A stretch of 64,000 nt of DNA from Amphiura filiformis (taxonomy: Eukaryota > Echinodermata > Ophiuroidea > Amphilepidida > Amphiuridae), in assembly GCF_039555335.1 (NCBI RefSeq), contig NC_092640.1, forward strand, positions 44,666,099 through 44,730,098. Reading direction: 5' to 3'. Position 1 is the first letter of the stretch. Each line of letters starts with the position of its first letter. This document shows, in pieces, positions 28,315 to 63,720 of the stretch. A model generated the notes under the pieces. It was not told the origin of the DNA. It was given only the letters and a program-made list of their open reading frames with translations, and did not search any database. A program made the position numbers and the translations under genes.

Positions 28315-28518
28315 TATAAATTGATTTATGATTAAAGGGAAAGAAAACATTAAATCAACATCAACAATTTAATAGTATATTAGCAAAAGCTATAGTAAAT
28401 ATTTGCAAATTTAAATTGTGCTTTCTTTTTTGCCATACCCATTTAAAAGGTTATCACTGATTTCATGTATACATTTTTGGATCATAATAATCATGTGTGT
28501 TGCATAAAACATTTAAAT

Positions 28519-28941
28519 GTGACATGTCATGTCAAAAGGAGACACTTTTGGGCAGGATCGTAAATGGAGAAATAGCCAAAAATCTGCCTGGGGGTGATTT
28601 TTTTCACAATTTGGGTTTGTTGCGAATTTGTAATGTTGTTAATGTTAAAATATTGTCTGATAGTTTCAGACCGGATAGGCCCGGATAACTGGCATCTTGT
28701 ATTTTTTGAGACATTTATCAAGGTAATTCCTACTCTCAACATTGTCAATAATATTTTTAAAGGCCAATATCTCAATTTCCAATTTTATAATACCATAACT
28801 TTCAAACTCAATATCTTCGCTTAGGAATATCCGATTTCATTGGGGAAAACTGCGTTGTGGAGCAAAATATCTTTAAGATATGTAAAAACCTCAAAATTGA
28901 TAACCTGCCCAAAAGTGTCTCATTTTGACATGACACGTCAC
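28519..28941. mobile_element. 423-bp MITE family member, AAAT duplication
   Basis: GTGACATGTCATGTCAAAAG and TTTTGACATGACACGTCAC are the inverted ends; cacttttgggcag pairs with ctgcccaaaagtg. AAAT is on both sides. A second full copy is at 51988-52408 (ATAT duplication) and a fragment at 18348-18425. Confidence 0.85.
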
Positions 28942-29079
28942 AAATACTAACTCTGAGAGCGTAAATTGTATTACTGTCATAAGTGTATACTGCTAGTAAC
29001 GACTATGCTAAAAAAAACGGCACTAATCAACTGAGCAAGAAGAGTGGGAGATAAAAATCTTCCATCTTTCCTTCTTCTT

Positions 29080-32274: not shown

Positions 32275-32610
32275 AGGAGTATTTCGTGATCCTAGCATCC
32301 TCTTTTTATGACATTTTTCAGTACATATCCACGAAAAAAGCATATTCCCAAAATTTCAGTTGATTCCGATTTTGCGTTTGCGAGTTATGCATGATGATGG
32401 GTATTACACTGCTCCATAGACAATACGTTGTAATTTCGTTCTGGTGCACCAGAACGAAATTCAAATTTCGCGATATCTTTGCTAAACGAATTAATCTGCA
32501 AGAAATATTTTGTACATAAACATTATGTAGCCAGAGTATTCCAGTGATATAAAAATCTCAACTTTTTTGAGAAAAGTGGGGGATGAGGCTGTGGATCACG
32601 AAATGCCCTT
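32275..32610. mobile_element. 336-bp MITE with TTAA duplication and central palindrome
   Basis: TTAA flanks at 32271-32274 and 32611-32614. The ends are tatttcgtgatcc and ggatcacgaaat. The centre is an exact palindrome, with arms atttcgttctggtg and caccagaacgaaat. TTAA targets are typical of piggyBac-type elements. A decayed second copy is at 42788-43121. Confidence 0.8.
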
Positions 32611-32689
32611 TTAAGCGGCTAAATAGGGTGATTCATCATTTACTTTGAATGAGCGGTCTCACACATATTTTGTTTGAGGATAGCTGGAT

Positions 32690-36754: not shown

Positions 36755-36985
36755 TGAAATAATGATTCAAGATTCAAGATTTATTTATTTGATATTCATC
36801 TTACAATAAGATATGATCAAATACATTGTAACAGATACAAATAGGTAAAAATAAACAATATACGGTAGAACAAAATGATTAAATATCATGCATAATACGG
36901 TTATCGAAAGATGAGTTTCCAAACTGAATAACTTGATTGAGTAATCAACTTGATTGATTTTGTAGTAATGTAAGAAGTGTAAAAA
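36755..36985 (-). pseudogene. 3' end of LINE-B, cut off from its body
   Basis: On the minus strand an AT-rich 3' end finishes in aaataaatcttgaatcttga, a LINE-like short tandem tail. The body of a minus-strand LINE begins again at 54409, just beyond the tail of LINE-A. I infer that these are two parts of one LINE split by LINE-A. Confidence 0.55.
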
Positions 36986-39712
36986 AGAATTTTGATTCAC
37001 TCACAGAGTTACTGTCAGAAGTCGACATCAATTTTCAAGTCATTGGACTTGTTGAGACTTGGTTGGAAGACAAGCCTCATGATTATTATCATCTTAAAGG
37101 CTACAACCTTGAAGTATGTAACAGAATTAATAAGAAAGGTGGTGGTGTGTGTATGCATGTTGAGGAGAATATTGTTTATAATATGAGAAATGATATCAAT
37201 GAGCTTAATTGCCTCAAAGACACAGAATCTCTGTTCATTGAAATTGAAAAGCACAAATCACAAAACATTGTCATTGGTGTGATATATAGGCCACCTGACC
37301 AGAATATGAAAGAATTCAACAAATGTGTTGATACGATATTGTCTAAAATCACAGGTCAAGAAAATAAGCTTCTGTATATAATGGGTGACTTTAATATAAA
37401 CCTGTTAAATAATGACGTCCATGAATCAACTGGCGAATTTGTTGACATTTTGTCTTCATATTCCTTGTATCCGAGTATCATCAAGCCAACTAGGATAACA
37501 CGTACGTCAGCAACTCTTATTGATAATATATTTACCAACAATTATGCTAAGCAAACCTCTGGTATCTTAATAAGTGATATAAGTGATCACCTACCTATAT
37601 TTGTATCTACAGATGTAAGTGCCTATGACAGAAATTCCAGTACTGTCGATATAGAAATCAGGGACATGAGTAAACATAATATAGATGTACTTAAAGACAA
37701 ACTGAGCCAGGTTGACTGGGATAATGTGTGTGAAAACGAAAATGCTAATGTGTCATACAACAATTTTATAGATAAATTCCAAGAAGTGTTTGAAGAATGT
37801 ATCCCACAAAAAGTGCTTAAAAAACATAACGCTAAAAACAAGACGCCAAAGGCACCTTGGATAACCTACTCATTGTTGAAATGTATACGCAGGAAGAACA
37901 GGTTGTATAAAAAATCTATGCAAAAACCTACTGAAACTAATGTATCTAAATATAAGATGTATCGAAACAGATTAAACTCCCTATTAAGGAGAGCAAAACA
38001 AAACTACTTCAGTTCTCAACTGGATAAAGAAAGATACAATATGAGGAATACCTGGAAAATCCTGAACTCAATACTCAGAAGTCCAAAAAAGGTACAATGT
38101 CAAAAGTTTGTAAGTAACAATAAGACCTATACTGAGCCTAAAGAAATTGCAAACAATTTTAATGAATTTTTTGCCAGCATTGGACCAACATTAGCTGGAT
38201 CAATCAAACATCAAGGTAAAGATTTTAACCAGTACCTAGCTAATAGTTGTAACTCTACATGTTTTTTCCAACCAACAGATGAAAATGAAATCTTGAAAAT
38301 CATCAAAAACTGGGTAACAGAAAAAGCCCGGGTCATGATCTTGTAAAATCTGACTTAGTAAAATTGGTTGCAGCTGAGATTGTGTATCCGCTTAAATTAA
38401 TATTCAATAAGTCGCTCTCAGATGGAATTGTTCCAGATACCTTAAAAATAGCAAAGGTGGTGCCAATTTATAAGAAAGAATCTCCTGAATCATTTGGTAA
38501 CTACAGGCCTGTATCTGTGTTGCCTTGTTTTTCCAAGATTCTAGAACGAATTATACATGATAGATGTTGTAACTTTTAGATGCCAAAGATATTCTTTACA
38601 ACAGACAGTATGGGTTTAGACATAATCATTCAACATATATGGCGGTATTGGATTTTATTAAAGATGTAAATAATGCTATTGATGATAATATGTACACTGC
38701 TGGTATTTTTATGGATTTATCGAAAGCTTTTGATACCATCAACCATGAAATTTTATTACACAAACTATATCATTATGGCTTTCGTGGTGTATCTCATAAA
38801 TGGTTTGAAAACTACCTGTCAAACAGAAAACAATTTGTATCCTTTAATGGTGCTCAATCATCATATGAAAATGTACTTTGTGGAGTGCCACAAGGGTCTA
38901 TCCTTGGTCCTCTTCTTTTTATTATATATATGAATGATATATGTAACACATCAACACTTTTATCATTTATACTGTTTGCTGATGATACAACAGTATGCTA
39001 CTCTGATAGTAATATACAAAGATTATGTGATACTATGAATGTAGAGTTAAAAGAGGTTGTAAATTGGTTCAAATGTAACAAACTGTCTTTAAATGCCACC
39101 AAGACAAATCTTATGTTCTTTGGAACACCTCATCAGACTAATGATATTACCAATGATTATCAAATATATCTTGATGGATGTAAGTTGACACGTGTATATG
39201 ATGCAAAATTTCTTGGTATTACTCTAGATCATAACCTCACATGGAGGTCGCATATAAATAGTATTTGTAAAACATGCTGTAAGAATATTGGTGTACTAAA
39301 CAAACTCAAACATTTCTTACCAAAACCCAACATGTACCAGTTGTTCTGTACCCTTATCTTACCATTCTTAACTTATGGTATAATATTGTGGGGCAATGCC
39401 AATAAAAATATTTTGGATAGAATTGTAAAGCTTCAAAAAAGAGCTGTAAGGGTCATCTCTAACAGCTCCTATTTGTGTCATACAAAGCCATTGTTTGAAA
39501 AATTTAATATTCTTGATGTGTATCAACTTTATAATAAGGAATTGGGTCTATTTATGTACAAATACCACATGTGTCTATTACCAAGATCTTTTGATAATAC
39601 TTTCATCAATATGAAGTCTATCCACAATTATGATACAAGAGGTAAAAATGATTATCGGGCCGAGGTCCATCGACTTAATAATGTTTTGTCACTTGGCCCT
39701 AGGCTGTGGAAT
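36986..39712 (+). pseudogene. LINE-A (CR1/jockey-type) endonuclease-reverse transcriptase, 5' part
   Basis: It opens inside the endonuclease domain (VIGLVETWLEDK). Metal-binding GDFNINLL is at 37384-37407 and SDHLPIF at 37582. The reverse transcriptase has NYRPVSVLPCFSKILERII, DLSKAFDTINHE, CGVPQGSILGPLLF and the catalytic FADD at 38976-38987, then LGPRLWN where the 14-kb insertion starts. Two frameshifts are visible: near 38306-38312 (the frame then reads KSPGHDLVKSDL) and near 38575 (TTTTAGATG, one T short). It is truncated at the 5' end and dead. The 3' part resumes at 53947. Confidence 0.9.
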
Positions 39713-39759
39713 GGGCTATTCCAGATAAAACATGCACCCCCCCCCCTATAGAGGGCAAC

Positions 39760-40090
39760 GGAAATCCAGATTTTTTTGTGGTCTCTGGGGCTTGGAATTC
39801 CAGCCAATTCTACAATATGCTTGTCAAATTCCAGCCTATTCTGCCTATGCTTGGCGCAAAATTTCCAGATTTTTCCACCGTTTTGTTAGTCTGAAGGCAT
39901 AGAGGGTTTTGGAATTCCAGGTTTATTGTGTTTATCCTTCGTTGGATTTCCAGACTTTTTTTTTTCTTTTCAACAAAATAATCCATATTTTTTTCCATTG
40001 AGGTGCTGGAATTCCAGATCGTTTTGTTAGTAATTTGCCGGGATTTCCAGTCTTTTGTGCAAATAGATATCAGGAATTCCATTCTCTTCC
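39760..40090. repeat. Left subterminal repeats of the giant element
   Basis: ggaattccag or near forms occur at about 39793, 39911, 40009 and 40071, each with T-rich neighbours and spaced irregularly. The other end at 53475-53890 has the same motif. Confidence 0.75.
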
Positions 40091-42783
40091 AGTTCAATGT
40101 AATTTGTCATTATGTATGTACATATGGGAGGGGGTGTGTGGGGGGTGTTTTCTCCCATCCCATACAAGTTGAGTTCACAATACTTGGCGCCTCCAGTTGG
40201 TGGTGGGTACTAGTTATAATCATCATGATTGACAGCCCAAGTTACTATGACAACCAATTTTGTTGTTGAGTAGGCCCTAATTATTTAAAGGGAAAGAAAA
40301 AGAGCAAGGTACACCAACTTGACGTGAAACAAGTCGCAGGGTGGCGAATCAGACCCTCCCTGCTCAGACAGTCGACAGATATGTTGTGACAAAATTTACG
40401 ATTTGCATCTTCCTTTTGGTCTATAGTTTACCCCAGTTTGGCCCACTTAGTATTAAAATGCCAAATTGCTGCGCCTCTCGGTAGGCCTATTCTGTGAGTA
40501 AATCTGCGAGACATCCCTTGGAAATTCTTTTTTTTCTTCTCGAACTTGAATACGAATCTCAAAAATGAGAGTTATAATTCCACCCTTTCTATAATGTAAA
40601 ATCATAAATAATATGAGTGCTAGGGCAGCTCCTCGTTGTAAAAGGCCTATGCATCTCCATCTTCCTTTGGCACATGTTGTCCTCAATTTTGTTCATTCTA
40701 GCATTGAAATTGCAATTTTTTTTCGCGTGGATTTGTCCTGATGTTCTTTTAGTAGCAAATCAGTGGGACGATTTGGAAATTTTGCCCACTGGTTCGGTGA
40801 TTCCGGTACCATCCACCTTTGAATTTTAGCATTGAAATAGCAACTCTGGGGTAAGCTTGGAAAAAAAACCTTGGGTTACAGTTGTGGGGAGGGGTGTCTT
40901 CTATCTGAAGGGCCGCCACTAGAGGTGGCAATCATGTTGCCTTGCCCATGGACCATCAAAAGGTAAATCCAGCCATATACCAGCGATACCAGCAAAATTT
41001 ATATTTCACCCCCACCCCCCCAAGCAAATGCACTAATTAGAAAATATCTGGTACATCATAGGTGTGATAATGGGGTACACTGCCCATTCAACAAGTTCAA
41101 CAAATAAAGTCAATACTATTACGTAATAATTGTTCATGGTACATAGCACACACCATATAGATAGTACACACATACACACAAGGAAAGTCAATATTGTAGT
41201 TCTTGGTCATGCAGTAGCCCTATGTTATCCTGTCATCTGTTGAAAATTTACTGAGTGTGCTTTTAGAATATTCTAGGATAGCTGATTTGGGTTAAGCTCA
41301 AGAAACTGTGTATTAAAAACAAATCAACTCATCATGGCTTTGGGTTTTAATAACAGGTTTACTTTCCGGGATTGATTGATTTTCAATGATGGATATACAT
41401 TTTAAGTTTAGCATCAGTTTTTGTTATTTAGTTAAGTTTTATAAAATGTTACAAAATAAAATAAATTTAATAATAATACATAAAATAGTATTAAACTCTG
41501 ACAAAGGCTACGAAAAAAACCCCTGTCTATGGGCCCAACCGAGTGTTTTTGAGAATGAAAAAAATATGTATTTTGCTTAAATCATAGAAAATATGTTTGT
41601 AAAAATATTTCAGATTTTGGTGATATTTTAGGGTAATTTCAAGTTAGCCTCCCTCTAGAAAAACAAGCACAAAAACACCTGACCCTACTTGAAGTAGAAA
41701 GGTCCGCCTGTAGAACAGGGTGGGGTTTTTTTTCGTCGCCTAAAATACTTTTTAGATTAAATAACATGACACAAAAAAACAGAAATTTTGACAATAATAT
41801 TTTTTTTTCTGATCAAATATAAATTTTGACCAAATTGTCAGAAAATTCATATAGCGATGAAATACAAAGATTACACATAAATATAAAATTTGAAAGAGGG
41901 ACTCTAAATACATTTAAAAATCCAAAAGCATATAAAATCAAGAAGTGCATTATTATTAAAATTAATTTATATTAAATGATGCTCCCCGCCTAAAAAAACA
42001 CCGGACATTGATTTTGTTTTTACATGTTTTGCATCTGGAAAATGCCTCATTACAAACGTCATACGAATTCGTCTCTATGGATTGTCTGAAATTGATAACA
42101 TTTGAAAGAGGGATATATGAATCCAATATCATATTAAAATTCTCATCAATATTAACTGTATATATACTAGCTAAAACTACTGTTCTTTGAATATGGTACA
42201 AAATGCAGATGTTCAATCAAATAGGCCTACATGTTGTATTGGCAATGTATAAATATCACATCATTCATTTGTTTCCCAATTGTAAAACAAGTTATGTTTT
42301 AGAAAAGGAAAACAAAACATCATCAAAAAATAAATCACATTTTTGACCAAACACCTTTTTGACCAAAAACTAAGTTTTTGACCCAAATCATATTTTTGAT
42401 CAAAAATCACATTTTAAGCCAAAATATTACAATGTAGTAAACCAAAAATCACAGTAAAAAGGGAAACGATTTTGCTCTGCTGTTTAGTAAAATTTTGCAC
42501 AATACCGGAGTAAACGTGTTACTCAATCAAGTTGAGTAAAATTTATCTTGCTAGAAGGGTTGTGCCCTAGCTTTTTACCATCCAAAAGAGTATGATTTTA
42601 CCCAAGGTTGAGTTTTTAAGAGTGTACAATTGTGCTAATTTATTTAATCTTTTGAAAATGATGAGTGATTTTTACTTTCAAGTGATGCAAATAAGACTAC
42701 TCAACTGGTTTAAATTCTTTTTTTTTTAATGTCATGTCCCTAATGATAATTGATATAGGTCCTAAATTATTTTAGTTAACATG
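40091..42783. other. Interior of the giant element, nothing coding recognised
   Basis: AT-rich with short homopolymers. The longest open frames are short, have no recognisable motif and are not supported as genes. Confidence 0.6.
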
Positions 42784-42787
42784 TTAA

Positions 42788-43121
42788 AAGGGCATTTCGT
42801 GATCCACAGCCTCATCCCCTCACTTTTCTCAAAAAAAGTTGAGATTTTTATACCACTGGATACCTCTGGCTACATAATGTTTATGTACCAAATATTTCTT
42901 GCAGATTAATTCCATTTAGCAAAAATATCGCCAAATTTGAATTTCGTTCTGGTATACCAGAACGAAATTTACAACAGTGGCCTATGGAGCAGTGTAAAAC
43001 ACATATAAATCATGCATAACTCGCAAACGCAAAATCGGAATCAACTGAAATTTTGGGAATTTTTTCGTGGATATCTACTGAAAATGTCATAAAAAGACTA
43101 TGCTATAAGATCACGTAATCC
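42788..43121. mobile_element. Second copy of the TTAA MITE with central palindrome
   Basis: It begins gggcatttcgtgatccacag after TTAA (42784-42787) and has the central palindrome aatttcgttctggtataccagaacgaaatt split at its middle. It is inverted relative to 32275-32610. The right end is decayed (gatcacgtaatcc). Confidence 0.75.
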
Positions 43122-44927
43122 TACTATGCACAATGCACATATTTATAAAATTCACTGAATTCAGTCACATTAATTTGCTGGTTTGGGGGAAATTGGTTAT
43201 TTTTGCTGCCAAGGTTGCTTAATTCTACATCCTTGGTATTTGAGTTACGATGAATTACGGGATATTTTATATACTGGTAGGCCTACTTGTGAAAAATATA
43301 ATGGAGACTGGAACATAATACACAAAATAATATTTATATAAATTATTGATCAAGTTTCAGCTTGTATGGATTTTGGTGAATTTGTCCTTAAAATGTCAGA
43401 ATTCTGCACCCATGACTGCAGAAATAAGAATTCCCCAAAACTTTTCAGTTCATTTTACTATTTGATGCATAACCCAATAACATTTTAACTCTTGGTTGTG
43501 AAAAAAAAACCACCTGGACTGTTGATCTTGTGCCATGTGGGCCATGATTTTTGGCAAATTCTAAAAGCATGATTTCAATGCAGTGCCTCGGTTTGAAAAA
43601 AATAATTGATATGTTATTGACATATAAAGTGCCATTTCATAAGAAACCCCTTTTATTTGACACTTTCACAATATGCATGTATGAAAAGGTAAATATGTAC
43701 TTGTGTTAATTTTGTTCCTAATTCATGAATTGGTATTTTTGGACTTTGTTATTCAGTTCCAATGACCGGTCACAATGGGACAGTTTGAAAATTCATAATT
43801 CGAAATGTATTTATCCGATTTTGACCATTTAAGCACCAAAATTCTTCTGTTGATGAGTTCTATCCAGAAAACAATCGTTTGCAACAACAGGGGCAATATT
43901 GTACTGTATGAATATGTACTAGAAGTCAGTCTCACATCTTCTTTTTTGGATATTACAAAACATGTACTCTCCCAAAAGCAAGCTTGAGAACAACTTATAA
44001 AAACTACTTGGAAAACATAAATCCAGTTATAAAACAACAAAATATTCTATGGCTTCATGTTATAAAATAAATAACAGTATAACCAAATTGATTTGGGATG
44101 TGGATTTTGTTCAATCTTAAAATACAATATCAGATATCATCCCTTTAATCAGCGTATTATAAATTTGATGAGGAATTTAAATACATACATGTATGCCATT
44201 TTGGGTTTTGTGTAGGGGGTGGAGGAAAAAAGCTTTGAATGTCATTAAAATACCCTGCATCTCTTTTCTACTAGGCTTTATTTAACTTAGCTCATTATAA
44301 TTATCGTTTTGCTTTTGTAAAGCCTACAATATTCTTAGCACGTCTAAAATTCCCCTGCATGCGGAGTGAACATAAAAAGGTTGAATAACACATGGAGATT
44401 AAAAAAACGAAAGTAAACAAAATCAAACGAAACTGGTAACTTGCAAAACTTTAACCACAGAGCAGTACATGTAACAGAACAAGATCTTGTTCATGGTTTG
44501 TTTAACCATGGATAAAGATAATTATGCTCTTCAAACACATTAAAGGTTCCATGACTTGGCAAACAAAGTTATACACACTTGTGTTTATAATACATGCACA
44601 GTCTTCACAGGCACACCAGTCTATGTACACCCAGTGGATCTGGGGGGTTCTGCTTGATCAGCAGAAGAGATGTACGTGTATTTCTCCCGTTCTGGTATTA
44701 CAGTAAATCTATCATTTGCTGCATATTTTGCTCAAATTTGTATGTACTTTTTACATGACTGTAATTGCCCAAGGCTCTCTGAAATACCATGTAAAGGACT
44801 AAGCCTGTTCGAAGTAAAAGGAAGAAGAAGGAGTTTTTATAATAAAACTGGGATCCCCAAAGCTCCACAGTTAAGCGGCTAAGTCGGTTTTTTACTTTTT
44901 ACCTCATTTATTTTCGCTTAGTTAAAA

Positions 44928-44969
44928 CTGAGACTAGTAAACCTGAGACTGTTGGTTTACTAGTCTCAG
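44928..44969. repeat. Perfect 16-bp-arm hairpin
   Basis: CTGAGACTAGTAAACC and GGTTTACTAGTCTCAG flank a 10-base loop. Confidence 0.85.
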
Positions 44970-47776
44970 GTTAAAATGATCAGAAGACCCCCTTGACAGA
45001 TAAAGTGTTACTAGTAGTAGTAATATTATGTAGGCCTAATCATAGTAATTTTTGACAAAAAGAAGAACAAAATTAAAATTTTACCAAAATCATACATTAT
45101 GTCTTTTATCATCAATCTCCAAAATATGAAAGATAAGACATTAGTGGTCCATGGTAAAACCAAATTTATCGAACGTAATCAAAACAATAAAATAATAATT
45201 TGGCCAAAACAACAACAACAAACAAACATTTGATTGTCCCTGCCCCTTTGAGGGATTCTGATTTTCGCCAGCTAAGAGCTGGCTATCTAATTCGGAGATC
45301 GTCTTTGTTTGCTAAAGAGATTACGGGGTACTAGCATTGGTTTGAATTACTTAGCGGAACTTTTTATGGTGAAAATATATGTAAGACCTGTTATTCGATT
45401 TGTAAGAAAAAGAAAGTATGTTTTGCCGTTTCAACGAATGAAAACGAGTGAGAATTTCAAAAGCTATGGTTTGAAGGAAATATAACATTAAAAGTTATAT
45501 GCCAGGCCTATAATAGTTTCCACAGCATATCAACGAAAGAAAATGATAGTATCCTTGTTATCAGGCGTTCTTAGATTTACATTTGCAGACCTCCTGGAGA
45601 TCAGCACAGCATGAGATGTGAGTGTATTGATAACATGATTAAAACCTTTATGGACCTAAAAGTCAAAGTAAAAATATCCTATATCCTGTATCGTTTTATG
45701 GATAAAAATGACTCAAAATGTCATTTATGAAATAATTGATATCTTAAACATCAGTTTTGTCTTTTCAACAGGAAAAATTCGATGTAATTTCAGGGCCTAT
45801 TTTTGATATGGGTACAATTGATATACATGTAGGCCTATTGAACAATATCAGTCTTTATACACTTTATACATTTTATAAAACAACTCGGCTTCGCCTCGTT
45901 GTTTTACTTAAAATAATGATGTCGCCCGTGTTATATGAGATGATAGATACACTCCAGGAGCTAAAAACAATACCTTTATTCTCTAAATTTTGCATTGTAG
46001 AAAAAAATAAAAATAAAAAAGTTCTCCTCTTTTTAAAGTTTTTTTTTCTGTCAGTGTAGTTTTTAGCTGTGGGCCTACTATGGAGTGCAGCCTGTAGTGT
46101 AGAGGTGTATCTTACTGACTTGCTTTTAATACTGACTTTCTAACCTTTTATAATTTTATAATAGTTACCCCTTTGGCTCTAAAATCATAATTACAAGACT
46201 CTGAATTTGTAAAGCTATATAGACCCTACCGAATACTGGCCACTCGTCCTTTATATTTAAATAAAAGTCTCCCCTCCATAAAGTACCACGGGGCAATTCG
46301 CAAAATAATACCATAACACATATGCTGAGGAAGCCTGATTACCTTTTTAAAATAGCTGAGTGGGGGGTTTTCAATGAAATATTTTTTCACATCAGTGAAA
46401 TGATGCCATTTGCCCCCACATCTCATATGCACAGTTTATCCCTTACATATCCTGTGTCTTGAATAGCTATATAACCCAACCCTGTGGTTAAGAGGCTAGG
46501 AAATAATTCCTAATATCTCATACCCTAGTTTGTATGCCTTTATCTAATCTTGCCCCACATGACAACTTACTATTTAGCCCTTAAACCCAGCAAAGTGTCT
46601 GCTCATTGTAGTAATTTTTAACCTTTTTTATAAATATGTTTGCAATTGGCTTATAGCCATCACATGCTGACAATACACATAACTGATTGGTTAATCAAAC
46701 TAGCAGGTCATGGTCAGGTCTAATCACAAAGTTAACATATCATCTGTATAGAAAACTATGCAGCAGGCGACTTACTTCAGAAAAAGTTCAATATAACTAC
46801 ATTGCATAAAACTAAGTCCATTATCTATAGTTAATTGGTCAAATGTTTATTGACTCTTGTAATAACCCATGTGTAGGCCTATAAACCTGTATAATATTGG
46901 TGTTCATAAAAGCAGGACTATGAGACAAATATCCCTGACCCTGACAAAAGCTAGCAAGAGCAAATGGCTGTGTAATTTGTTTACTTTAGTGATAAGGCAT
47001 CTTGCATACATGTACAAATTTCATTTTATTTTATTTATTTTATTTATTTATTAGACTCTATACTTCGTAGTTTATAGCCAAATTTGTTTCCTGTAGGTGG
47101 CTTCATAAAAATTCCTTTAAAAAAGGAATGGGGCGCCCAATGTGAGCTTGGTCGTGATGTATTGAATTTCATGGTGTTTAGATTTGGTATTATTATCTCA
47201 TGAAACCCGGTGACACCTCATTATAGAAATCAGACCTGTTGATAGGTTGTAAGAGGGGAAAGCCTTTTCCAGGCACAAATTGGGCCATATATAAAGAAAG
47301 TTTTGCTACTTTGCAACGCAATAAAAACCTTAAATGCAAAATGAGATCATGTAGGTGGCTTCCGAGGTGGCTTAAAAAACTAAATGCAAAATGAGGTTTA
47401 AAAAAATATTGTTTTTCAGAGTCAAGACACAGGTATCATTATTAAGCCTCATATCATTTATTTATTGTCGAATAAGTGCAGAGTAGGTTACATATGAATA
47501 TTAAATGTTAGACCAAAGTAGCTCAAAGTACATGTACTATACACCTGATCCGTGAACTTCTTGTTTGTGTAAAAACTGAGCATCATATGTGTAAAAGAAT
47601 ATTTGAATATTAACTGTAGGCCTACATCATATATAACGATTCGTGATACCCAATCATGCTTCAGTTTATGTGGTTTAGGAAGCAGAGAATTTTATTTCAA
47701 TTTTATATACGCCAAAATATTTTCTGAATAATAAAAATTAACACTGAATTGATGGCGGAAATTTTATGTAAAATTT

Positions 47777-47860
47777 ACGTAGGTCCCCACTAAAGATTAC
47801 TGTTTCGTCTTTATGGGAATTTAATCTTTTAATATCTGAAAGAACTTTGGGGACCTACGT
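47777..47860. repeat. Hairpin with ACGTAGGTCCCC arms
   Basis: ACGTAGGTCCCC and GGGGACCTACGT enclose about 60 bases. Possibly a small MITE. Confidence 0.7.
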
Positions 47861-48149
47861 GGACTACGAATCAAATGGTAGGCTGACTAGGCTCCCTGCC
47901 TTGCAGAGCACGTGCATGCACGAAATCAATTGTGTATGTAAGCTTATGTATCATAGGCCCCTCGTATTGTTTGTATGCGCCTGAGAATTCAACAATATTA
48001 ATAATGGTAGCTCTACACATTAATGTTTTTAAGCAGATAAAATTCCAAAATATGGTACGTTTTCTGTCTTTGCTTGTCACGTGGTATGTTGAAGTAATGA
48101 AGTAATTGAAGTTGTGATTATATGTTCAAATTTTCAAGATGGCTCCAAC

Positions 48150-48252
48150 AAGTCAGTTGGCCGAGCGGTAAACATGGTAAAGGCGCTGGTAATATGTCGA
48201 TACTGTATACATGATAGCGGTGCAGCGAGGGTTCGAGCCCCACCTCTGCCGA
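48150..48252 (+). repeat. tRNA-like SINE head or tRNA pseudogene
   Basis: ttggccgagcggtaaacatg is A-box-like (Leu/Ser type) and gagggttcgagccccacc is B-box-like with partial stem pairing. The acceptor arm does not pair, so a working tRNA is unlikely. A T-rich run follows. Confidence 0.5.
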
Positions 48253-48839
48253 ACTATTAAAATTTCCTTTTTTTTTTTAAATTTCATATTATGTTAGGGA
48301 AATGTGACTGGGAGAAATTATGTATGACGAAGAGTGGTGTGGGTCTATAGGTTCATCCCCTGCAATGGTGATCCCCAGCCCGACTTGGGTCTTCACTCTT
48401 CATTCTAGCTTGTGCGAAGATTTTGTTTTTATAGGCCTATTTGTTTAAAACAGCATCACACTCACTCCCACAGCCCACACCCCACACACAATAGTATAGA
48501 CATATGATATCCCTATTATCATTGATTAAATATTTTGAGCTCAAAATGTAGAAATATACACTTTGAGCTCATCTTATAATAATAGCTATATAACAGGGCA
48601 AGGAAAGAACTAGGTGTCAATTATAACAAGTACCGTCGGATCCGTAGCGGTCGCTGCGGGACAACAAATTCAATTTTGCAGTGTTGGTGTCTTTGAAGCA
48701 GGTTCAAGTTTGACCCCTATTTTGACCTGTAACCCCTCTGTGAGCTTCACCTTTGAGGGCGCTCATCTTAAAATAATGCCAGAAAGGGTATTTCCATCCA
48801 CACCAAAAAAAAAATCAAAATTTGAAAAATTGTGTTCGG

Positions 48840-49830
48840 AAACCAATTTTGGACACTTTTGATGTCCAAACGATTTTCGGGAAAAAAGCGTCATGACATC
48901 AAAAGTGTTCGGAAACCGATTTCGGACACTTTTGATTTCCAAACAATTTTCGGGGAAAAAGCGTCTTGACATCGAAAGTGTTCGGACACCGATTCCGGAC
49001 ACTTTTGATGTCCAAACGATTTTCGGAAACAAAGCGTCTTGACATCGAAAGTGTTCGGAAACCGATTTCGGACACTTTTGATGTCCAAACGATTTTCGGG
49101 GAAAAAAGCGTCTTGACATCAAAAGTGTTCGAAACCGATTTCGGACACTTTTGATGTCCAAACGATTTTCGGAAAAAGGCGTCTTGACATCGAAAGTGTT
49201 CTTTTGATGTCCCAACTATTTTCGGGGAAAAAGCATCTTGACATCAAAAGTGTCCGGAAACCGATTTCGGACACTTTTGATGTCCAAACGATTTTCGGGA
49301 AAAAGCGTCTTGACATCAAAAGTGTTCGGAAACCGATTTCGGACACTTTTGATGTCCAAACTATTTTCGGGAAAAAAGCGTCTTGACATCAAAAGTGTTC
49401 GGAAACCGATTTCGGACACGTTTGATGTCCAAACGATTTTCGGGAAAAAAGCGTCTTGACATCGAAAGTGTTCGGAAACCGATTTCGGACACGTTTGATG
49501 TCCAAACGATTTTCGGGAAAAAGCGTCTTGACATCGAAAGTGTTCGGAAACCGATTTCGGACACGTTTGATGTCCAAACGATTTTCGGAAAGAAAGCGTC
49601 TTGACATCGAAAGTGTTCGGAAACCGATTTCGGACACGTTTGATGTCCAAACGATTTTCGGAAAGAAAGCGTCTTGACATCAAAAGTGTTCGAAAACCGA
49701 TTTCGGACACTTTTGATGTCCAAACGATTTTCGGAAAAAAAGCGTCTTGACATTAAAAGTGTTCGGAAACCGATTTCGGACACTTTTGATGTCCACACGA
49801 TTTTCGGGAAAAAAGCGCCTTGACATCAAG
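48840..49830. repeat. Minisatellite of about 73 bp, 13-14 copies, internally palindromic
   Basis: The unit contains gatgtccaaacgattttcgg, gaaaaaagcgtcttgacatc and aaaagtgttcggaaaccgat, ttcggacactttt. The last part is nearly self-complementary. Spacing is 71-74 bases. Almost no stop codons occur in any frame on either strand, which produces long but meaningless open frames. Confidence 0.9.
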
Positions 49831-50395
49831 TGTTAAATCCCTAATTTCCCTTAATTCTTGTCAATTTCCTTAATTCACCAGAATTTCCTTAATTCTCTTC
49901 AATTTCCCTTAACTTCCCTCAATGTTCCCAATTTCCCTCAATTTCCCTCATTTTCCCAAATTTCCTTCACTGCCCTCTATTTTCCCAAATTTCCCTTAAT
50001 TCTTGTCAATTTCCCTTAATTCCCCTGAATTTCCCTGAATTTCCCTTAATTCTCTTCAATTTCCCTTAACTTCCCTCAATGTTCGCAATTCTCCTCAATT
50101 TCCCTCATTTTCCCAAATTTCCTTAAATTCCTCTATTTTCCCAAATTTCCTTAATTCACCTGAATTTCCCTTAATTTTCCTCAATTTCCCCACATTTCCC
50201 TTAATTCCGCTCAATTTTCCCCAATTCCCCTCAATTTCCCTTAATTGCCCACAAAATCAATTAATTCACCTGAATTTCCCTAAATTCCCCCAAAATTGCC
50301 CTTAATTTCCCCCATTCCCCGCAATTTCCCTCTTTTCTCTCAATTTCCCCACTTTTCCCAAATTTCCCTTAATTGCCCTATAAGCCCTCTCCCTC
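49831..50395. repeat. TTTCCC/TTAATT-rich simple array
   Basis: Irregular repeats of aatttcccttaattcc and aatttccctcaatttccc run for about 560 bases. The strand is strongly pyrimidine-biased. Confidence 0.9.
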
Positions 50396-50760
50396 ACCAA
50401 GTAGTACCACAGCCATGCGACAAACGATATTGACGTAACAGCATTTTTTAGAAATTGTTGAAAATCGTGTAATGCCCCTTTAATGACCTAATTAGCATAT
50501 TTCAGGACGGAACTCTTTTCCAGTATGGGGCCGGTACCTGCCTTCCCCCTCACCAAGTACCATAGCCATGCGACAAACGATGTTGACGTAACAGCATTTT
50601 TTGAAATTGTTGAAAATCGTGTAATGCCCCTTTAATGACCTAATTAGCATATTTCGGGACGAAACTCTTTTCCAGTATGGGGCCGGTATAGGCCTCCCCT
50701 CACCAAGTACCATAGCCATGCGACAAACGATGTTGACGTAACAGCATCTTTTAGCGTTTG
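50396..50760. repeat. Three tandem copies of about 150 bp
   Basis: agccatgcgacaaacgatat, tgacgtaacagcattttt and gtatggggccggta recur with starts near 50396, 50552 and 50700. The third copy is cut short, and cggacgcacgga tetranucleotide-like repeats follow (50770-50820). Confidence 0.85.
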
Positions 50761-50938
50761 TTAGGCCTACTAACGGACTAACGGACGCACGGACGGACGC
50801 ACGGACGGACTAACGGAGAGACATGGTGACTTATAGAGCTGCTACCCGCAGCTAAAAACCTTGAATATATTTACATAAACAAAGTCAAGTAAAACGCAAG
50901 TGTGGACAACTCAGCTTGGTCGTGTTTACTCAAGAAAA

Positions 50939-51305
50939 CCCCGGGGGGGGGGGGGGGGTCACTCCCATTGGGGCCTGTACACCATCCGCGATAATCAACT
51001 TTTCAAAAGTACCCTAAACAACGATTTAACCCTTGGCTAAAACGATACCCTAAACAAGTGTTTTCACACCCTAAACACGGATTTTCTTCCTTGCATCAAA
51101 TGTCATACCCTAAATTTCATTTCCGCGTATTAGTAATTGCAATTTTGCTACCCTTTTTCCCGCCTTTTTTCCAATATTTCATGTTTTGACACCCTAAACA
51201 CGTTACGCGCGTATCGTGCCTACCCACGAAAAACTACCCTTTTTACGCGTTTTCATTATCGCGGATGGTGTACAGGCCACAATGGGAGTGACCACCCCCC
51301 CCGGG
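50939..51305. mobile_element. MITE with CCCGGGGGG ends
   Basis: tcactcccattggggcctgt, acaccatccgcgataat on the left pairs with attatcgcggatggtgt, acaggccacaatgggagtga on the right, bounded by G17 and C8 runs. The interior repeats accctaaacac. Confidence 0.85.
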
Positions 51306-51987
51306 AAGAAGAAAACTCAAAAACTTCCACATTTTAGAAAGGAAGTTGCATTGCGTTCGAAACACTAGCATTTGTGAGTCAAGTGCAGTAAAAACATGCA
51401 AGTTTCCCAATCCAAAACTTGCAAGTTCTTAAACTTGCATTTTGATTTTTACTAGGGTTAGTGGGGTCAATTTGTGGTCTGAAAGTGCAGTCGTGAACTT
51501 ATTTTCCTTTCAAATAATAATCCCTCACTCAGACATCAGTATGATACGAGTGGTTATTTGTTTTGTTTTATCGAAGAAATTAGCACATGACTTTGCACCA
51601 TTCGATCCATGCAACATGTATTTATTTTTGGTAACAATAAAGGACCATTTCCTCTATACATCTTCCCAATCTGGGTGTTCAATTGATATACCTAGATTTG
51701 GAAGACGTGTGTGCACTTTATTATTACTTTATTTATGTCGTATTTTATTCATACATGTCGTATGTATACGGACGTTGAAACTTTAAAAGTAACAGTCCCC
51801 AACGAATTTAGATATGAGAGCTCTTTGATGTCTACTCCCCAATCAGGGAATTCCCTTTTAACAAAGGAGCACCTGCGTAGTACAAGGTACTGCAGCAATT
51901 AGCATAAGCACCATCGGCGCGACAAGGTCGCACTCGTTCTACTTGCTGTGGCTTTATGTATTTATCATGTAGCCTATTTATAAATAT

Positions 51988-52408
51988 GTGACGTGTCATG
52001 TCAAAAGGAGACACTTTTGGGCAGAGTCGTAAACGGAGATATAGCCAAAAATGCCCAGGGATAATTTTTTCACAATTTGGGTTTTTGCGAATTTGTGATG
52101 TTATTATAATGTTTAAAATATTGACTGATAGTTTCAGACCGGAATATAACTGGCATCTTGTATTTTTTGAGACATTTTCCAAGGTAATTGCTACACTCAA
52201 CATTGTCAATAATATTTTTAAAGGCCGATATCTCTATTTCCAAGTTTATAATACCATAACTTACGAACTCAATATCTTCACTTAGGAATGTCCGATTTCA
52301 TTGGGGAAAACGGCGTTGTGGAGCAAAATATCTCTATATTTAAGATATGTAAAAACCTCAAAATTGATAACCTGCCCAAAAGTGTCTCCTTTTGACATGA
52401 CACGTCAC
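51988..52408. mobile_element. Second copy of the 423-bp MITE, ATAT duplication
   Basis: GTGACGTGTCATGTCAAAAG and TTTTGACATGACACGTCAC are the ends; ATAT is on both sides. It aligns throughout with 28519-28941 (for example tccgatttcattggggaaaa and aacctgcccaaaagtgtctc). Confidence 0.88.
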
Positions 52409-52522
52409 ATATATCTATTTCATTCAAATACAGGTATGTATTTAATATAAAAACAACATTTGAGGCTTTAGGTATTTTAGTCTCAGCTCAAACCAAAGTA
52501 AGAAAGTTTGAATTCTTATGTA

Positions 52523-52742
52523 CCGTAAACGTTCGCCTAATGGCGCACATGGGCTCCTTTGCCTTGGGGTAAATTTCATGTACAAAGAGAGAGCTACCAC
52601 CTCTAAAAATCACAACAAGAATTAAGGATATGTGCATGCCCTTATTTGCTGGTGGGATTTTTGTGGGAGGGCACTTTAAGTTTGTGTCTAATACCAGTTA
52701 TATCAAAGGGGCCCATAGCGCCATTAGGCGAACGTTCTACGC
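52523..52742. mobile_element. 220-bp MITE, TA target
   Basis: aacgttcgcctaatggcgc and gcgccattaggcgaacgtt are inverted, bounded by CCGTA and TACG and by TA on both sides. It is probably a mariner-type element. Confidence 0.8.
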
Positions 52743-53474
52743 TATATCCATTGACAATACAACAATATTCGTGTTGTAAAGTAGGGGAAAAAGATCTAGG
52801 CCTCAAGAAAGAAAGAACAGGAATAACTAAAGAATAATTAAGGACATAAAGAAGAATTTTGCCCTAATGAATTTTTAGAAAGAGCTGAAGCAAGAAACTG
52901 AGTTTCACAATCCAATCCTTTTATAGTTCGAAATGTGTGCTGCCGACAGAGTATGCGTCCCTTTGTGTGGTTCAGTTCATGGACCTAAAGACCCGGTTTA
53001 ACAAGAATGTTAAAATTATGTCACGCCAATCAAACATTTTTTAGGCCTAATATAGAAACTAGTAGGCCTACATACCACATATTGTTATTGAAAACCCGTA
53101 AGGAGAACAGCAACCCTTCACAAAAGAGAAGCTTAATTTTAGTGGTTACCTAGGATACCAACACCAGTGGCGTGCGCAAAGGGGACAGGGGGATGTGCCC
53201 CCCCCCCCCTTTTGTCAAAAGTTCGGGGAAATGCACCCAATCGGGGGGAAACTGGGGAATTAGTTATTAAATTTTAAAACAGTCAGAGAATCGAGACCCC
53301 TGAACCAGACTTTGAAAACCTGCGTATATATACGTTACTGCCAAACACACGCCTTGGTGGTGGGCCTATATTATACATGTAAAACATCATAGATGACTTG
53401 GAATAAAGGCAGATAAAGCAAATATAATGAAACCTTTAGAACAATAAAGGTGCCCCCCAAAAAAAAAAACCTTA

Positions 53475-53890
53475 ACATGGAATTCCAGACTTTTTGGTAG
53501 TCAATTGAAAAATTCCAACTTATTTGTGTAATTTTAGATACCTCTATAGAGGGCGATGGAATTCAGATTTTTTGGTAAGTCAATTGAAAATTCCAACTTT
53601 TTTTTGATAATTTTTAAAAACCCTCTATACCCCTCCATGGAATTCCAGACTTTTTTGCTAGTCAATTGAAAAATTCCAACTTTTTATTTGGGTATTTTTA
53701 GAAACCCTCTATAGAGGGCGATGGAATTCCAGATTTTTTTTGGTAAGTCAATTGAAAATTCCAACTTTTTTTTGACAATTTTTAAAAACCCTCTATACCC
53801 TCCATGGATTTCCAGATTTTACATGCACTAAACAGGCCCGGCAATCCAGGTTTCTTCCTCAAGTATGCTTTGGAATTCCAGACATTTTAG
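53475..53890. repeat. Right subterminal repeats of the giant element
   Basis: ggaattccagactttttggt, gtcaattgaaaaattccaac and ccctctatagagggcgatgg alternate about five times at roughly 70-120-base spacing. They share ggaattccag with the left end. Confidence 0.8.
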
Positions 53891-53946
53891 AAAAACAAAT
53901 TTTTGCCCTCTATAGGGGGTGCATGTTTTATCTGGAATAGCCCAAT

Positions 53947-54408
53947 AGCTTACCAAAGGAAGTCAAAGAAGCAAATTGCATCTCCAAATTCAAAACTGGT
54001 ATTATTAGAATCGTTAAAGGTGATCACTAACTCTTGATTATCGCATTCATGTAATAATTCTGTTTTTACTCTATTGTACAAGTTACTGAAGTTGTTACAT
54101 ATAAACACTTTTTAAAAAAAATTGCATTAATTTGCCTGGTTAATGTATATAAGTGATATTCAAGATGGGTTCCGTGCTGTCTCTTTTTTTCTGTTTTTAT
54201 ACTGATTTTTTTTCTTTCTTGTGTAAATATCTTAACTTATATATTATTTAATGTAAAGGTGATGCATTGTCTTTCAGGCCTTTGGCTTTGTAATGCATCT
54301 ACCTCATCACATCATTATTTTCAACATTGTTTATATCTGTTATGCTGATTATGTATGTATTGATGATGATGAAAAATTAAAATGAATGAATGAATGAATG
54401 AATGAATG
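53947..54408 (+). pseudogene. LINE-A, 3' part: RT C-terminus, 3' UTR and (AATG)n tail
   Basis: Bases 53947-54030 continue the LINE-A frame from 39712 (SLPKEVKEANCISKFKTG, then stop TAA). The 3' UTR follows, and the element ends in at least six aatg repeats (54383-54408). The tail directly abuts minus-strand LINE-B sequence. Confidence 0.85.
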
Positions 54409-56292
54409 GTATCATAGTCCTGTACACTCATAATAAGTATACATATATCTCTATCAGATAGACTGTCAAAGTCATAGATGCTTCTAAAATTATCAAGCAA
54501 TCGTATCCGCAAGTCATTGTAAAAAGAACACTTCATAACAAAGTGAAACTCATCTTCAACATCACATAACTTACAAATCCTATCTTCAGGCCTTTTTCAA
54601 TCATTAGCTGATGTGCGCTAATTCTTAATTTACAAAATAAGACACGAGAGGAACGGTTCATCATCATGACATAATTTTCTATAACGAAAATCTTTTTTTG
54701 AAAAGACAAAAAGTTTAGCCTGGTAACAAGTGATTTGTTTAACCCATAAATCACTGTATACATCTTTAATAATACTGTGTACAATATCATCAAAGTTAGA
54801 TAAAGTAAAAGTAATAACATTGGGTTTATCCCATATATCCAACCATAATCATTTTTAAACTATTAAAGATACCAGATGACCATGAAAATATACCTGATGA
54901 GTGAAGCCTTCTATTATCAATGAATGCATCTGTCACAAGCTCATTACTCCCTTTATGGCATTTAACATTTAATTTCCACCAATATTTAATTGATAAACTA
55001 ATCATATGAATAAGTAAAGGGAAACTACAAAGTTCACCTCTAACAGCATGATTAGTAGATTTTTTATGCACACCCAAAATTCCTTTACAAAATTTAATAT
55101 GAAGAGATTCACCTGGTAGTTTATTACATAATGAAAGACGATTACTATTATTAAGTTTATTTAACAGAAATGGAGACCAAACCTCGCAGCCATATCCAAT
55201 TATTGGCTGCATTAATGTTTGGAATAACTTAAAACCACATTTTGTTGAATTATCAAATAAATTATGACGTATTTTAAAGTAGGTTTTCAAAGCCTTTTCT
55301 TTAAGTCTGTTCATTGCTTTTGTAAATGAGCCAGAAGGTACAAAAATAATTCCAAGATAACAGTATTCATTAGTAACATTAATGTTACAATTACATGTAC
55401 CATATTTAAAACTATGTTGACGAATTAATCTACCACCCTTATTAAAAATCATTACGTTAGCCTTATTGATATTGACTACCAATTTCCACTAGTTACAAAA
55501 AATGTGTAATTTTTTTAGGGGGTACTACACCCCTGGCCAACTTTTTGCCTATTTTTGCATTTTTCTCAACAATTATAGCACATTGGTGACAAGTAAGATA
55601 TGTATATTATAGGGGCAAGGACTACAACTACTGTACTGAAAATTCAGCAACTCAAAGCAAGTAGTTATTGATTTATTGATCAAATATTGGTTTTCCTCAT
55701 TTTTGACTCTAACTCCACAACTGTTGTCTGTGCTGAAATAAAATTTCCAGTGCAGTAGTTGTAGTCCTTGCCCCTATAATATACATATCTTACTTGTCCC
55801 CAATGCGCTATATTTTTTGAGAAAAACGCAAAAATAGGCACAAAACTGGGCAGGGGTGTAGTACCCCTTAAGCGCAATTTGCAACCCAGCAGCACTCTCT
55901 GACATGAGAATCAGATCATCTGCATACATTAGGCAGTTCAAATCAGTATTATTAAGATTAACTGGAGCACAAGTAGAATAAAAAAATTGAGGTAAATTAC
56001 TGAGGAAAATATTATGGGCTCAAAATACATCCCTGCTTCACACCAACGGAAGTACTGAATAAGTCAGACATTATCATGATTATTGTCTTTTTTAACAGCA
56101 AATAAAACTGAAGCATACACATCATGAATTATTTTCAAAAATTTGCCTCCAATACCAATCTGAGTTAATTTATAGAAGAGTGCATTGCGCCTAATGGTAT
56201 CAAAGGCGGAAGTAAAGTCAACAAAACAAATATATACAAATATGATTTACCAATGCGGTTAATGTACTTATCAATAACTGTTTTTAAGACTA
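54409..56292 (-). pseudogene. LINE-B reverse transcriptase, 5'-truncated and split by a MITE
   Basis: Read on the minus strand from 56292: VDFTSAFDTIRRN (56222-56183), GVKQGCILSP, the catalytic YADDLILMS (55926-55898), then AGLQIAL up to the MITE at 55867. It resumes below 55517 with KANVMIFNKGG, CYLGIIFVPSGSFTKAMNRL and IIGYGCEVWSPF, then a C-terminal Cys-His motif (MKCSFYNDLR) and DYDT at 54409. Stops and frameshifts make it a pseudogene. Its end probably lies at 36755-36985. Confidence 0.85.
55518..55867. mobile_element. 350-bp MITE with TTAA target, copy 1 (inside LINE-B)
   Basis: gggggtactacacccctgg and ggggtgtagtacccc are inverted ends; the long arms include aggggcaaggactacaacta and tagttgtagtccttgcccct-like text. 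TTAA is on the right and TTTA on the left. Removing it rejoins the LINE-B frame. Confidence 0.85.
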
Positions 56293-63008: not shown

Positions 63009-63720
63009 TTGTGTCTCGCATTGTCTTACGCCCTGCTAGGGGGAAACATATAGACCGCCTCCTTCTTCACTATTTAATATACAATTGGCCGCTGAGACAC
63101 AATGAGAGATTGCCCGAGTACCGACGGTGAACTCAGGTAGTACAGTGGTAAAGCTCTGGACCGGTAATCCAGCGGCCGGGGTTCAATCCCCGCTGAGTTC
63201 TGATTTTTCTCTCTCAATATTTTCATATGTCAGTTTGCTCGAGCCCCAAACACGTCATTTAAATAATAATTTCTCGGCTTGCATCGTTTATTTCCGATCC
63301 TCGCATATAAATAATATAATTTGTGTCTCGCATTGTCTTACGCCCTGCTAGGGTGAAGCATATAGGCCGCCTGCTTCTTCATTATTTAATATATAATTGA
63401 CCGCTGAGACACAATGAGAGAGTTATCATGGGGACTTAAGTTGAGATTGCCCGAGTACCGACTGTGAACTCAGGTTGTACAGTGGTAAGACTCTGGACTG
63501 GTAATCCAGCGACCACAGTCAAATGCTGATTTTTCTCTCTCAATATTAATTTCATATGTCAGTTTGCTCGGAAACCAAACACTTCATTTAAATAATAATT
63601 TCTCGGGCTTGCATCCTTTATTTCCGATCCTCGCATTTATTAATTTGTGTCTCGCATTGTCTCACGCCTTGCGAGGGTGAAGCATATAGGCCGCCTCATT
63701 CTTCATTATTTAAATAATCA
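63009..63720 (+). repeat. Three tandem copies of an approximately 311-325-bp unit with tRNA-like core
   Basis: tgtgtctcgcattgtcttac, gccctgctaggg starts copies near 63010, 63321 and 63646. Each has ccgctgagacacaatgagag and, in the first two, a tRNA-like segment. The TGTGTCTC start and GAGACACA are inverted within the unit. Confidence 0.85.
63129..63200 (+). tRNA. tRNA-Thr(GGT)-like cloverleaf, probably a repeat-borne tRNA relic
   Basis: Acceptor arms GAACTCA and TGAGTTC pair exactly. The anticodon arm CTGGA-CCGGTAA-TCCAG pairs exactly and would read ACC (Thr), but position 33 is C rather than the near-universal U. The T-arm cggggttcaatccccg pairs only if the loop has six bases. A second, worse copy is at about 63468-63530. 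No CCA is coded, as is normal in eukaryotes. A functional tRNA is possible but less likely than a SINE-like relic. Confidence 0.35.

Follow-up and report, generated by a model that had tools for sequence, protein, structure and literature searches.

How did 14.2 kb of DNA come to lie within the coding frame of a long interspersed nuclear element (LINE) in the ophiuroid Amphiura filiformis, in such a way that the frame is taken up again on the far side of the insert? We analyzed a 64-kb stretch of contig NC_092640.1 (RefSeq assembly GCF_039555335.1, forward-strand positions 44,666,099 to 44,730,098; hereafter the window), in which an insert bounded by inverted ends had been noted from the sequence alone. 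That observation is confirmed, and the insert is best read as a large non-autonomous cut-and-paste DNA transposon, mobilised in trans, that entered the LINE as a single 14.2-kb unit, a reading to which we give a probability of about 60%. The interior would then have been captured or accreted before arrival. The coordinates of the features discussed are collected in Table 1.

The borders of the insert could be placed to the base. An AAT was found on either side as a target-site duplication (TSD) of 3 bp, and joining the flanks with one AAT gave a single LINE frame open to its stop codon with no base lost (...NNVLSLGPRLWNSLPKEVKEANCISKFKTGIIRIVKGDH, also written ...LGPRLWNSLPKEVKEANCISKFKTGIIRIVKGDH), both as the original prediction had held. 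The joined translation includes LWNSLPKE, and we take WN.LP to be a conserved stretch close to the end of such LINE proteins. The exact 20-base inverted ends that had been described were likewise found and proved to be longer, the terminal inverted repeats (TIRs) having 24 exact bases, then a poly-C run (10 C on the left versus 5 C on the right), and then continuing to a 41-bp end with zero mismatches, so that the two differ in poly-C length only. With up to three mismatches allowed, GGGCTATTCCAGATAAAACA had exactly two sites in the window, at 39713-39732 (plus strand) and 53924-53943 (minus strand), against a chance expectation of 0.01. The element has the termini GGGC..GCCC, and on either side of 13.4 kb of other DNA it consists of a TIR followed inwards by an array. 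A search of the window for an inner copy of the TIR found none: apart from the two ends, a score of 28 was reached at three places, of which two lie in the insert (one in the right array), and by one of five shuffled controls as well. The conclusion that the insert is one element with both of its ends is supported.

An observation was also made at the target, where the LINE sequence TGGAATAGC (39698-39712 / 53947-53960) is identical to nine bases within the terminus of the element itself, CTGGAATAGCCC. With 20-mers overlapping the element's own termini excluded, a match of at least 9 bases to the 12-bp terminus occurred in 12 of the 63,919 20-mers of the window, which may be one place seen in overlapping 20-mers, and one of at least 8 bases in 79. 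Because this is one site, spotted post hoc, a target preference is not demonstrable from the match.

The interrupted LINE looks young, since none of its 945 codons was a nonsense codon. Its upstream frame matched the Pfam families Exo_endo_phos_2 (E 2.1e-6), Exo_endo_phos (E 5.5e-6) and RVT_1 (E 9.6e-29), and both of its frameshifts fall, as judged by eye, in homopolymer runs. Its neutral divergence is bounded (95%) below ~2.1-3.2%, depending on the assumed transition bias and provided that it has been neutral since insertion. One insertion, the 14.2-kb insert itself, was counted in the 2.84 kb of its coding part, the remaining 0.38 kb being taken as the 3' end.

We then considered the arrays that lie just inside the TIRs. 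Shared subterminal repeats had been pointed out in the original prediction, and all seven plus-strand copies of GGAATTCCAG in the 64 kb indeed lie within the two arms, the reverse complement occurring once, in the left arm. In a looser form, the motif was found on the plus strand 9 times in 39713-40300 and 10 times in 53400-53943; the minus strand had 4 and 2 sites, respectively, and four of these six are the other half of the palindromic GGAATTCC. Spacings between plus-strand motifs within the arms (n=17) were 31-34 bp in nine cases and 51-53 bp in four, the rest being 30, 45, 64 and 78 bp. When the arms were aligned without their TIRs, the direct alignment extended over ~320 bp with a score of 119, reached by none of 200 randomised pairs (maximum 98), whereas the inverted alignment scored 59, a chance level reached by 42 of 200. 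The arms are therefore two parts of one unidirectional array and not long inverted arms, and the longer imperfect inverted arms proposed earlier had to be given up. An alignment of eight units from both arms gave a shared unit, regular in the right arm and degenerate in the left, and the array is broken at GGAATTCCA, which is found on both sides of the break (40073-40081 and 53479-53487).

The interior between the arrays resembles ordinary DNA of this genome, since other copies of its nested repeats A, C and D lie in the window outside the insert. Recognisable nested repeats, including a short 8/12-bp tandem, make up 27.4% of it (with MITE B, one of the miniature inverted-repeat transposable elements (MITEs), counted from 50949), in agreement with the satellites and other MITEs already noticed there. 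Scanning the insert against Pfam in all six frames gave no family at E up to 1, with stops read as X, so that split or very decayed domains could escape; two other stretches given the same treatment yielded RVT_1 and EGF-type domains. This bears out the earlier remark that no transposase is to be recognised. Interior frames of 133, 117 and 103 aa had no Pfam family, the longest of them running into MITE A. Two further observations concern this region. The unit of the 73-bp satellite has inverted segments, and among the pairs listed (25 of 119) the arms were 65-192 nt long and 70-80% complementary, all in or near the array. A segment at 48140-48260 appears tRNA-like by eye, with GGTTCGAGCCCC, and is possibly the head of a short interspersed nuclear element (SINE); ARAGORN and Rfam (gathering threshold) make no call there.

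Table 1. Positions in the window of the insert, its parts and the LINE that it interrupts.
Feature	Position	Strand	Remarks
Whole insert	39713..53943	.	14,231 bp
Left AAT target-site duplication	39710..39712	+	
Right AAT target-site duplication	53944..53946	+	
Left terminal inverted repeat	39713..39758	+	46 bp, poly-C of 10
Right terminal inverted repeat	53903..53943	-	41 bp, poly-C of 5
Left array, ATTCCAG-type motifs	39759..40081	+	Inner edge GGAATTCCA at 40073-40081
Right array, 84-bp tandem units (to 53820)	53479..53902	+	Motif and orientation as in left array
Interior	40082..53478	.	13,397 bp, of which 3,672 bp (27.4%) are recognisable nested repeats; six-frame Pfam scan without a family
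Nested MITE C	42784..43125	-	One end starts TTAA, other decayed by eye; second copy 32275-32614
Nested diverged repeat D	45262..45846	-	Two matching pieces, 18844-19012 and 19269-19507
73-bp satellite	48832..49829	.	
TCCCTTAATT-type 10/20-bp satellite	49838..50379	.	Directly beside the 73-bp satellite
152-bp tandem repeat	50383..50762	.	
Nested MITE B	50948..51302	.	~50-bp inverted ends
Nested MITE A	51986..52410	+	Perfect inverted ends, 41 bp including two bases further out; other copy 28517-28946
LINE 5' part	36958..39712	+	Frame for endonuclease and reverse transcriptase; two frameshifts, no nonsense codon
LINE 3' part	53947..54408	+	Frame resumes to stop ending 54031; AATG repeat 54381-54408 taken as tail

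With these features in hand, we asked whether the element reached its size before or after landing in the LINE. Growth from 0.83 to 14.2 kb by insertions of 0.4 or 1.0 kb, under the assumption of an equal insertion rate per kb in element and LINE, predicts ~20 or 8 insertions in the LINE coding part, and the chance of at most one in those 2.84 kb is 4e-8 or 3e-3, respectively. Over an assumed whole LINE of 3.2 kb the predicted numbers are 23 and 9, and the corresponding chances 3e-9 and 1e-3. Since one insertion was observed, piecemeal growth after arrival is disfavoured, and many small insertions after landing are an unlikely source of the size. The original prediction of a large non-autonomous element that grew by insertions consequently holds as to the kind of element, while its growth would have to be placed differently: accretion or capture before landing is possible, as is one large later insertion. 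The nested repeats were compared with their copies in the window by Kimura two-parameter (K2P) distance, giving 0.15 and 0.28 for the two pieces of repeat D, 0.08 for MITE C and 0.07 for MITE A. If the copies share a source, the divergences of D and C exceed the bound for the LINE even when halved, and the nested-repeat divergence is in part in line with earlier accretion; MITE A, having perfect ends in its inner copy, was dropped as dating support.

The favoured reading, a non-autonomous transposon that arrived as one unit, draws its support from the matching 41-bp ends, the 3-bp TSD, the recovery of the LINE frame, the same orientation of the two arrays and the lack of recognisable coding sequence. 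Under it, the ancestor would have been a short element of ~0.83 kb, consisting of a TIR, one continuous array and a second TIR, and before the jump into the LINE its array would have been split at GGAATTCCA by ~13.4 kb of genomic DNA without coding sequence, one possible route being template switching at the repeated motif during gap repair. The transposase would be produced from another place in the genome, bind the inverted ends together with the motif arrays, excise the unit and integrate it where AAT had been cut with a 3-bp stagger. By analogy, the many motifs resembling binding sites may help so long an element to pair its ends.

Several points weigh against this reading. The element is known from a single copy, and the break of the array at a repeated GGAATTCCA would also be in keeping with a 13.4-kb insert of separate origin that left a TSD of 9 bp. 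The growth calculation presupposes equal rates and does not cover one large insertion. The dating by nested repeats is weak in that the copies may derive from different source subfamilies, and the inner copy of MITE A, with its perfect 41-bp ends, may be young. A length of 14 kb is also well above that of most Pack-MULEs, given as 1-2 kb in the relevant part of a review (PMC6431247).

These points lead directly to the alternative that a short MITE-like element of ~0.83 kb lay in the LINE and that one unrelated 13.4-kb piece later entered its array at GGAATTCCA. The two copies of GGAATTCCA flanking the break could be its 9-bp TSD, and both arms combined do resemble one short element, but the duplicated nonamer is the array's own motif, so that no insertion event is required to explain it. 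A search for border pairs of such a separate insert reduced 16,761 pairs to 25 candidates, mostly array motif and otherwise matches of 6-7 bp, with one 12-base inverted match with two mismatches (40107 / 53430), about what chance would give for that many trials as judged without a shuffle control. The inner piece also has no long direct repeat pair of the long terminal repeat (LTR) kind and no Pfam domain, and we regard this history as unlikely. A macrotransposon would be a different route to the same layout, in which two short elements ~13 kb apart lent one end each to the transposase and the host DNA between them was moved. The interior, which is like ordinary window DNA and has repeats A, C and D in common with it, and the motif arrays on both sides of it would agree with this; each short element should, however, have left an inner end, and with no inner TIR or clear relic found both would have to have been lost, which makes the proposal quite improbable. 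For the same reason, the insert being without inner ends, two separate MITEs were ruled out.

Two further explanations carry very little weight. The original prediction had also raised a giant transposon of a new type with unrecognised cargo, which could be an autonomous or virus-like element whose transposase falls outside Pfam or is too decayed. The size of the insert and its interior frames of over 100 aa without a family might point that way, but we found no positive evidence for it: the six-frame Pfam scan was empty, the 133-aa frame enters MITE A, and the interior consists partly of satellites and MITEs with copies elsewhere. We therefore consider such an element highly improbable. About as little credence is due to an assembly artefact, with unrelated sequence joined between the LINE halves. 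Satellites and repeats such as those inside the insert are typical assembly traps and a single sequence is known, but a misjoin would explain neither the pair of 41-bp inverted ends nor the 3-bp duplication and the restored LINE frame, even if misassembly could still have changed the interior.

Relatives of the element were sought in two sequence collections, viral_contigs and genome_contigs, which are by description viral and prokaryotic, without animal genomes, and zero matches there therefore say nothing on family size. The short TIR pattern gave 15 chance-like matches in viral_contigs, none of them, by eye, alike beyond the pattern by more than a base or two, and the longer TIR and array patterns gave none. 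The TIR patterns had no match in genome_contigs, the end of one nested MITE had none in these collections, and a peptide pattern from the LINE reverse transcriptase matched four stretches in viral_contigs, none encoding a relative. Literature matches to GGGCTATTCCAG included, by title, none on transposons, which does not show the family to be absent from print, and TATTCCAG combined with the terms transposition, inverted repeat and target site found nothing, although the family may still be in print. A family of marine-invertebrate repeats that may have a similar start was followed up through text matches to short pieces of it and of the present end; by title none was on transposons, and the putative resemblance was not used.

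Elsewhere in the window, a minus-strand frame of 220 aa at 54826-55488 resembles by eye the C-terminal portion of a reverse transcriptase from another LINE, with no Pfam match at E 0.001. Several EGF-type frames at 3116-23356, some of them in near-identical tandem copies (e.g. within 7689-9220), belong to what appears to be a large EGF-repeat gene. A minus-strand frame at 9883-10278 with a DUF4817 helix-turn-helix domain (E 3.2e-9) is a possible transposon remnant, and a tRNA-Thr (GGT) called by ARAGORN at 63129-63201, overlapping an Rfam tRNA match at 63131-63199, may be a gene or a SINE.

Should there be other copies in which the same ends enclose different interiors, the insert would represent a naturally occurring animal DNA transposon whose cargo of non-coding host DNA is well over 10 kb. 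Such a cargo would exceed the ~6 kb above which, according to part of a review (PMC6431247), the efficacy of DNA transposition falls significantly, and the arrays would offer a testable reason for this. One could go further and imagine an animal family of cargo transposons, that is, short TIR elements with a one-way array of binding sites into which stretches of host DNA exceeding 10 kb were repeatedly taken up without loss of mobility as a unit, the array offsetting the length, with a possible preference for targets like their own ends (TGGAATAGC versus CTGGAATAGCCC); we hold this extension to be doubtful, and decidedly so. Should the insert instead stand alone, it would amount to nothing beyond a clear case of a non-autonomous element that has become bloated.

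Compared with known systems, the insert has the general traits of cut-and-paste TIR transposons, namely inverted ends at exact borders, a short TSD and a restorable empty site. It resembles MITEs and other non-autonomous TIR transposons in its inverted ends, its short TSD, its lack of recognisable coding sequence and its presumed mobilisation in trans. MITEs measure a few hundred bases, however, and the insert, at 14,231 bp far above that size as had been stated at the outset, differs from them further in its split one-way array and its long genomic-like interior. Polinton/Maverick elements have a TSD of 6 bp and carry PolB, integrase and capsid genes, in place of which the insert has a TSD of 3 bp and no Pfam family. 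An LTR element was ruled out, as direct self-match pairs of at least 60 bases within the insert were tandem arrays only. Macrotransposons of the Ac/Ds type contain a large host segment between two element ends; the insert is like them in having a large segment between two ends and unlike them in that no complete element with inner ends was found on each side. The usual Harbinger target is TWA, a form that AAT, seen in one copy, does not have.

As for superfamily, the length of the TSD would fit Harbinger-like or Zator elements, a TSD of 3 bp being described for PIF/Harbinger (PHIS), with 0- or 2-bp TSDs in related lineages, in part of one source (PMC12730594) and for Zator in part of another (PMC10045372). 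The six-frame Pfam scan found no Harbinger or Zator transposase in this copy. EnSpm/CACTA elements, the termini of which are given as CAC..GTG in a passage of the first source (PMC12730594), were ruled out by GGGC..GCCC. In Galileo, as set out in part of a further source (PMC3688188), repeats inside the long inverted ends bind the THAP domain of the transposase and are proposed to offset element length. Galileo and Foldback-like elements share with the insert the repeated motifs behind each end, for which a similar role could be suggested by analogy only, but they differ from it in that the arrays are here direct copies and the TSD is 3 bp; long inverted arms with tandem repeats are not present, the arms being direct inside the 41-bp TIR.

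Also comparable are the Pack-MULE and Pack-TYPE elements, which, in the sections of the review concerned with them (PMC6431247), are TIR-bounded, carry captured host DNA and obtain their transposase from elsewhere. The insert differs from them in its 3-bp TSD and in having no recognisable gene fragment; captured fragments of host genes are a trait of Pack-MULE and Pack-TYPE elements, and the Pfam scan, which found no domain in the insert, would not show non-coding host DNA. In a study cited there, no Pack-MULE exceeded 7 kb, which is half the size of the insert (PMC6431247). The same part of the review describes En/Spm families of a red alga with sizes of 16-20 kb and 4-5 open reading frames, and artificial cargoes of 100-200 kb (PMC6431247), so that a coding-free element of 14 kb is out of the ordinary, although its size has parallels. 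The insert thus looks unusually large for its kind, yet introduces no new principle.

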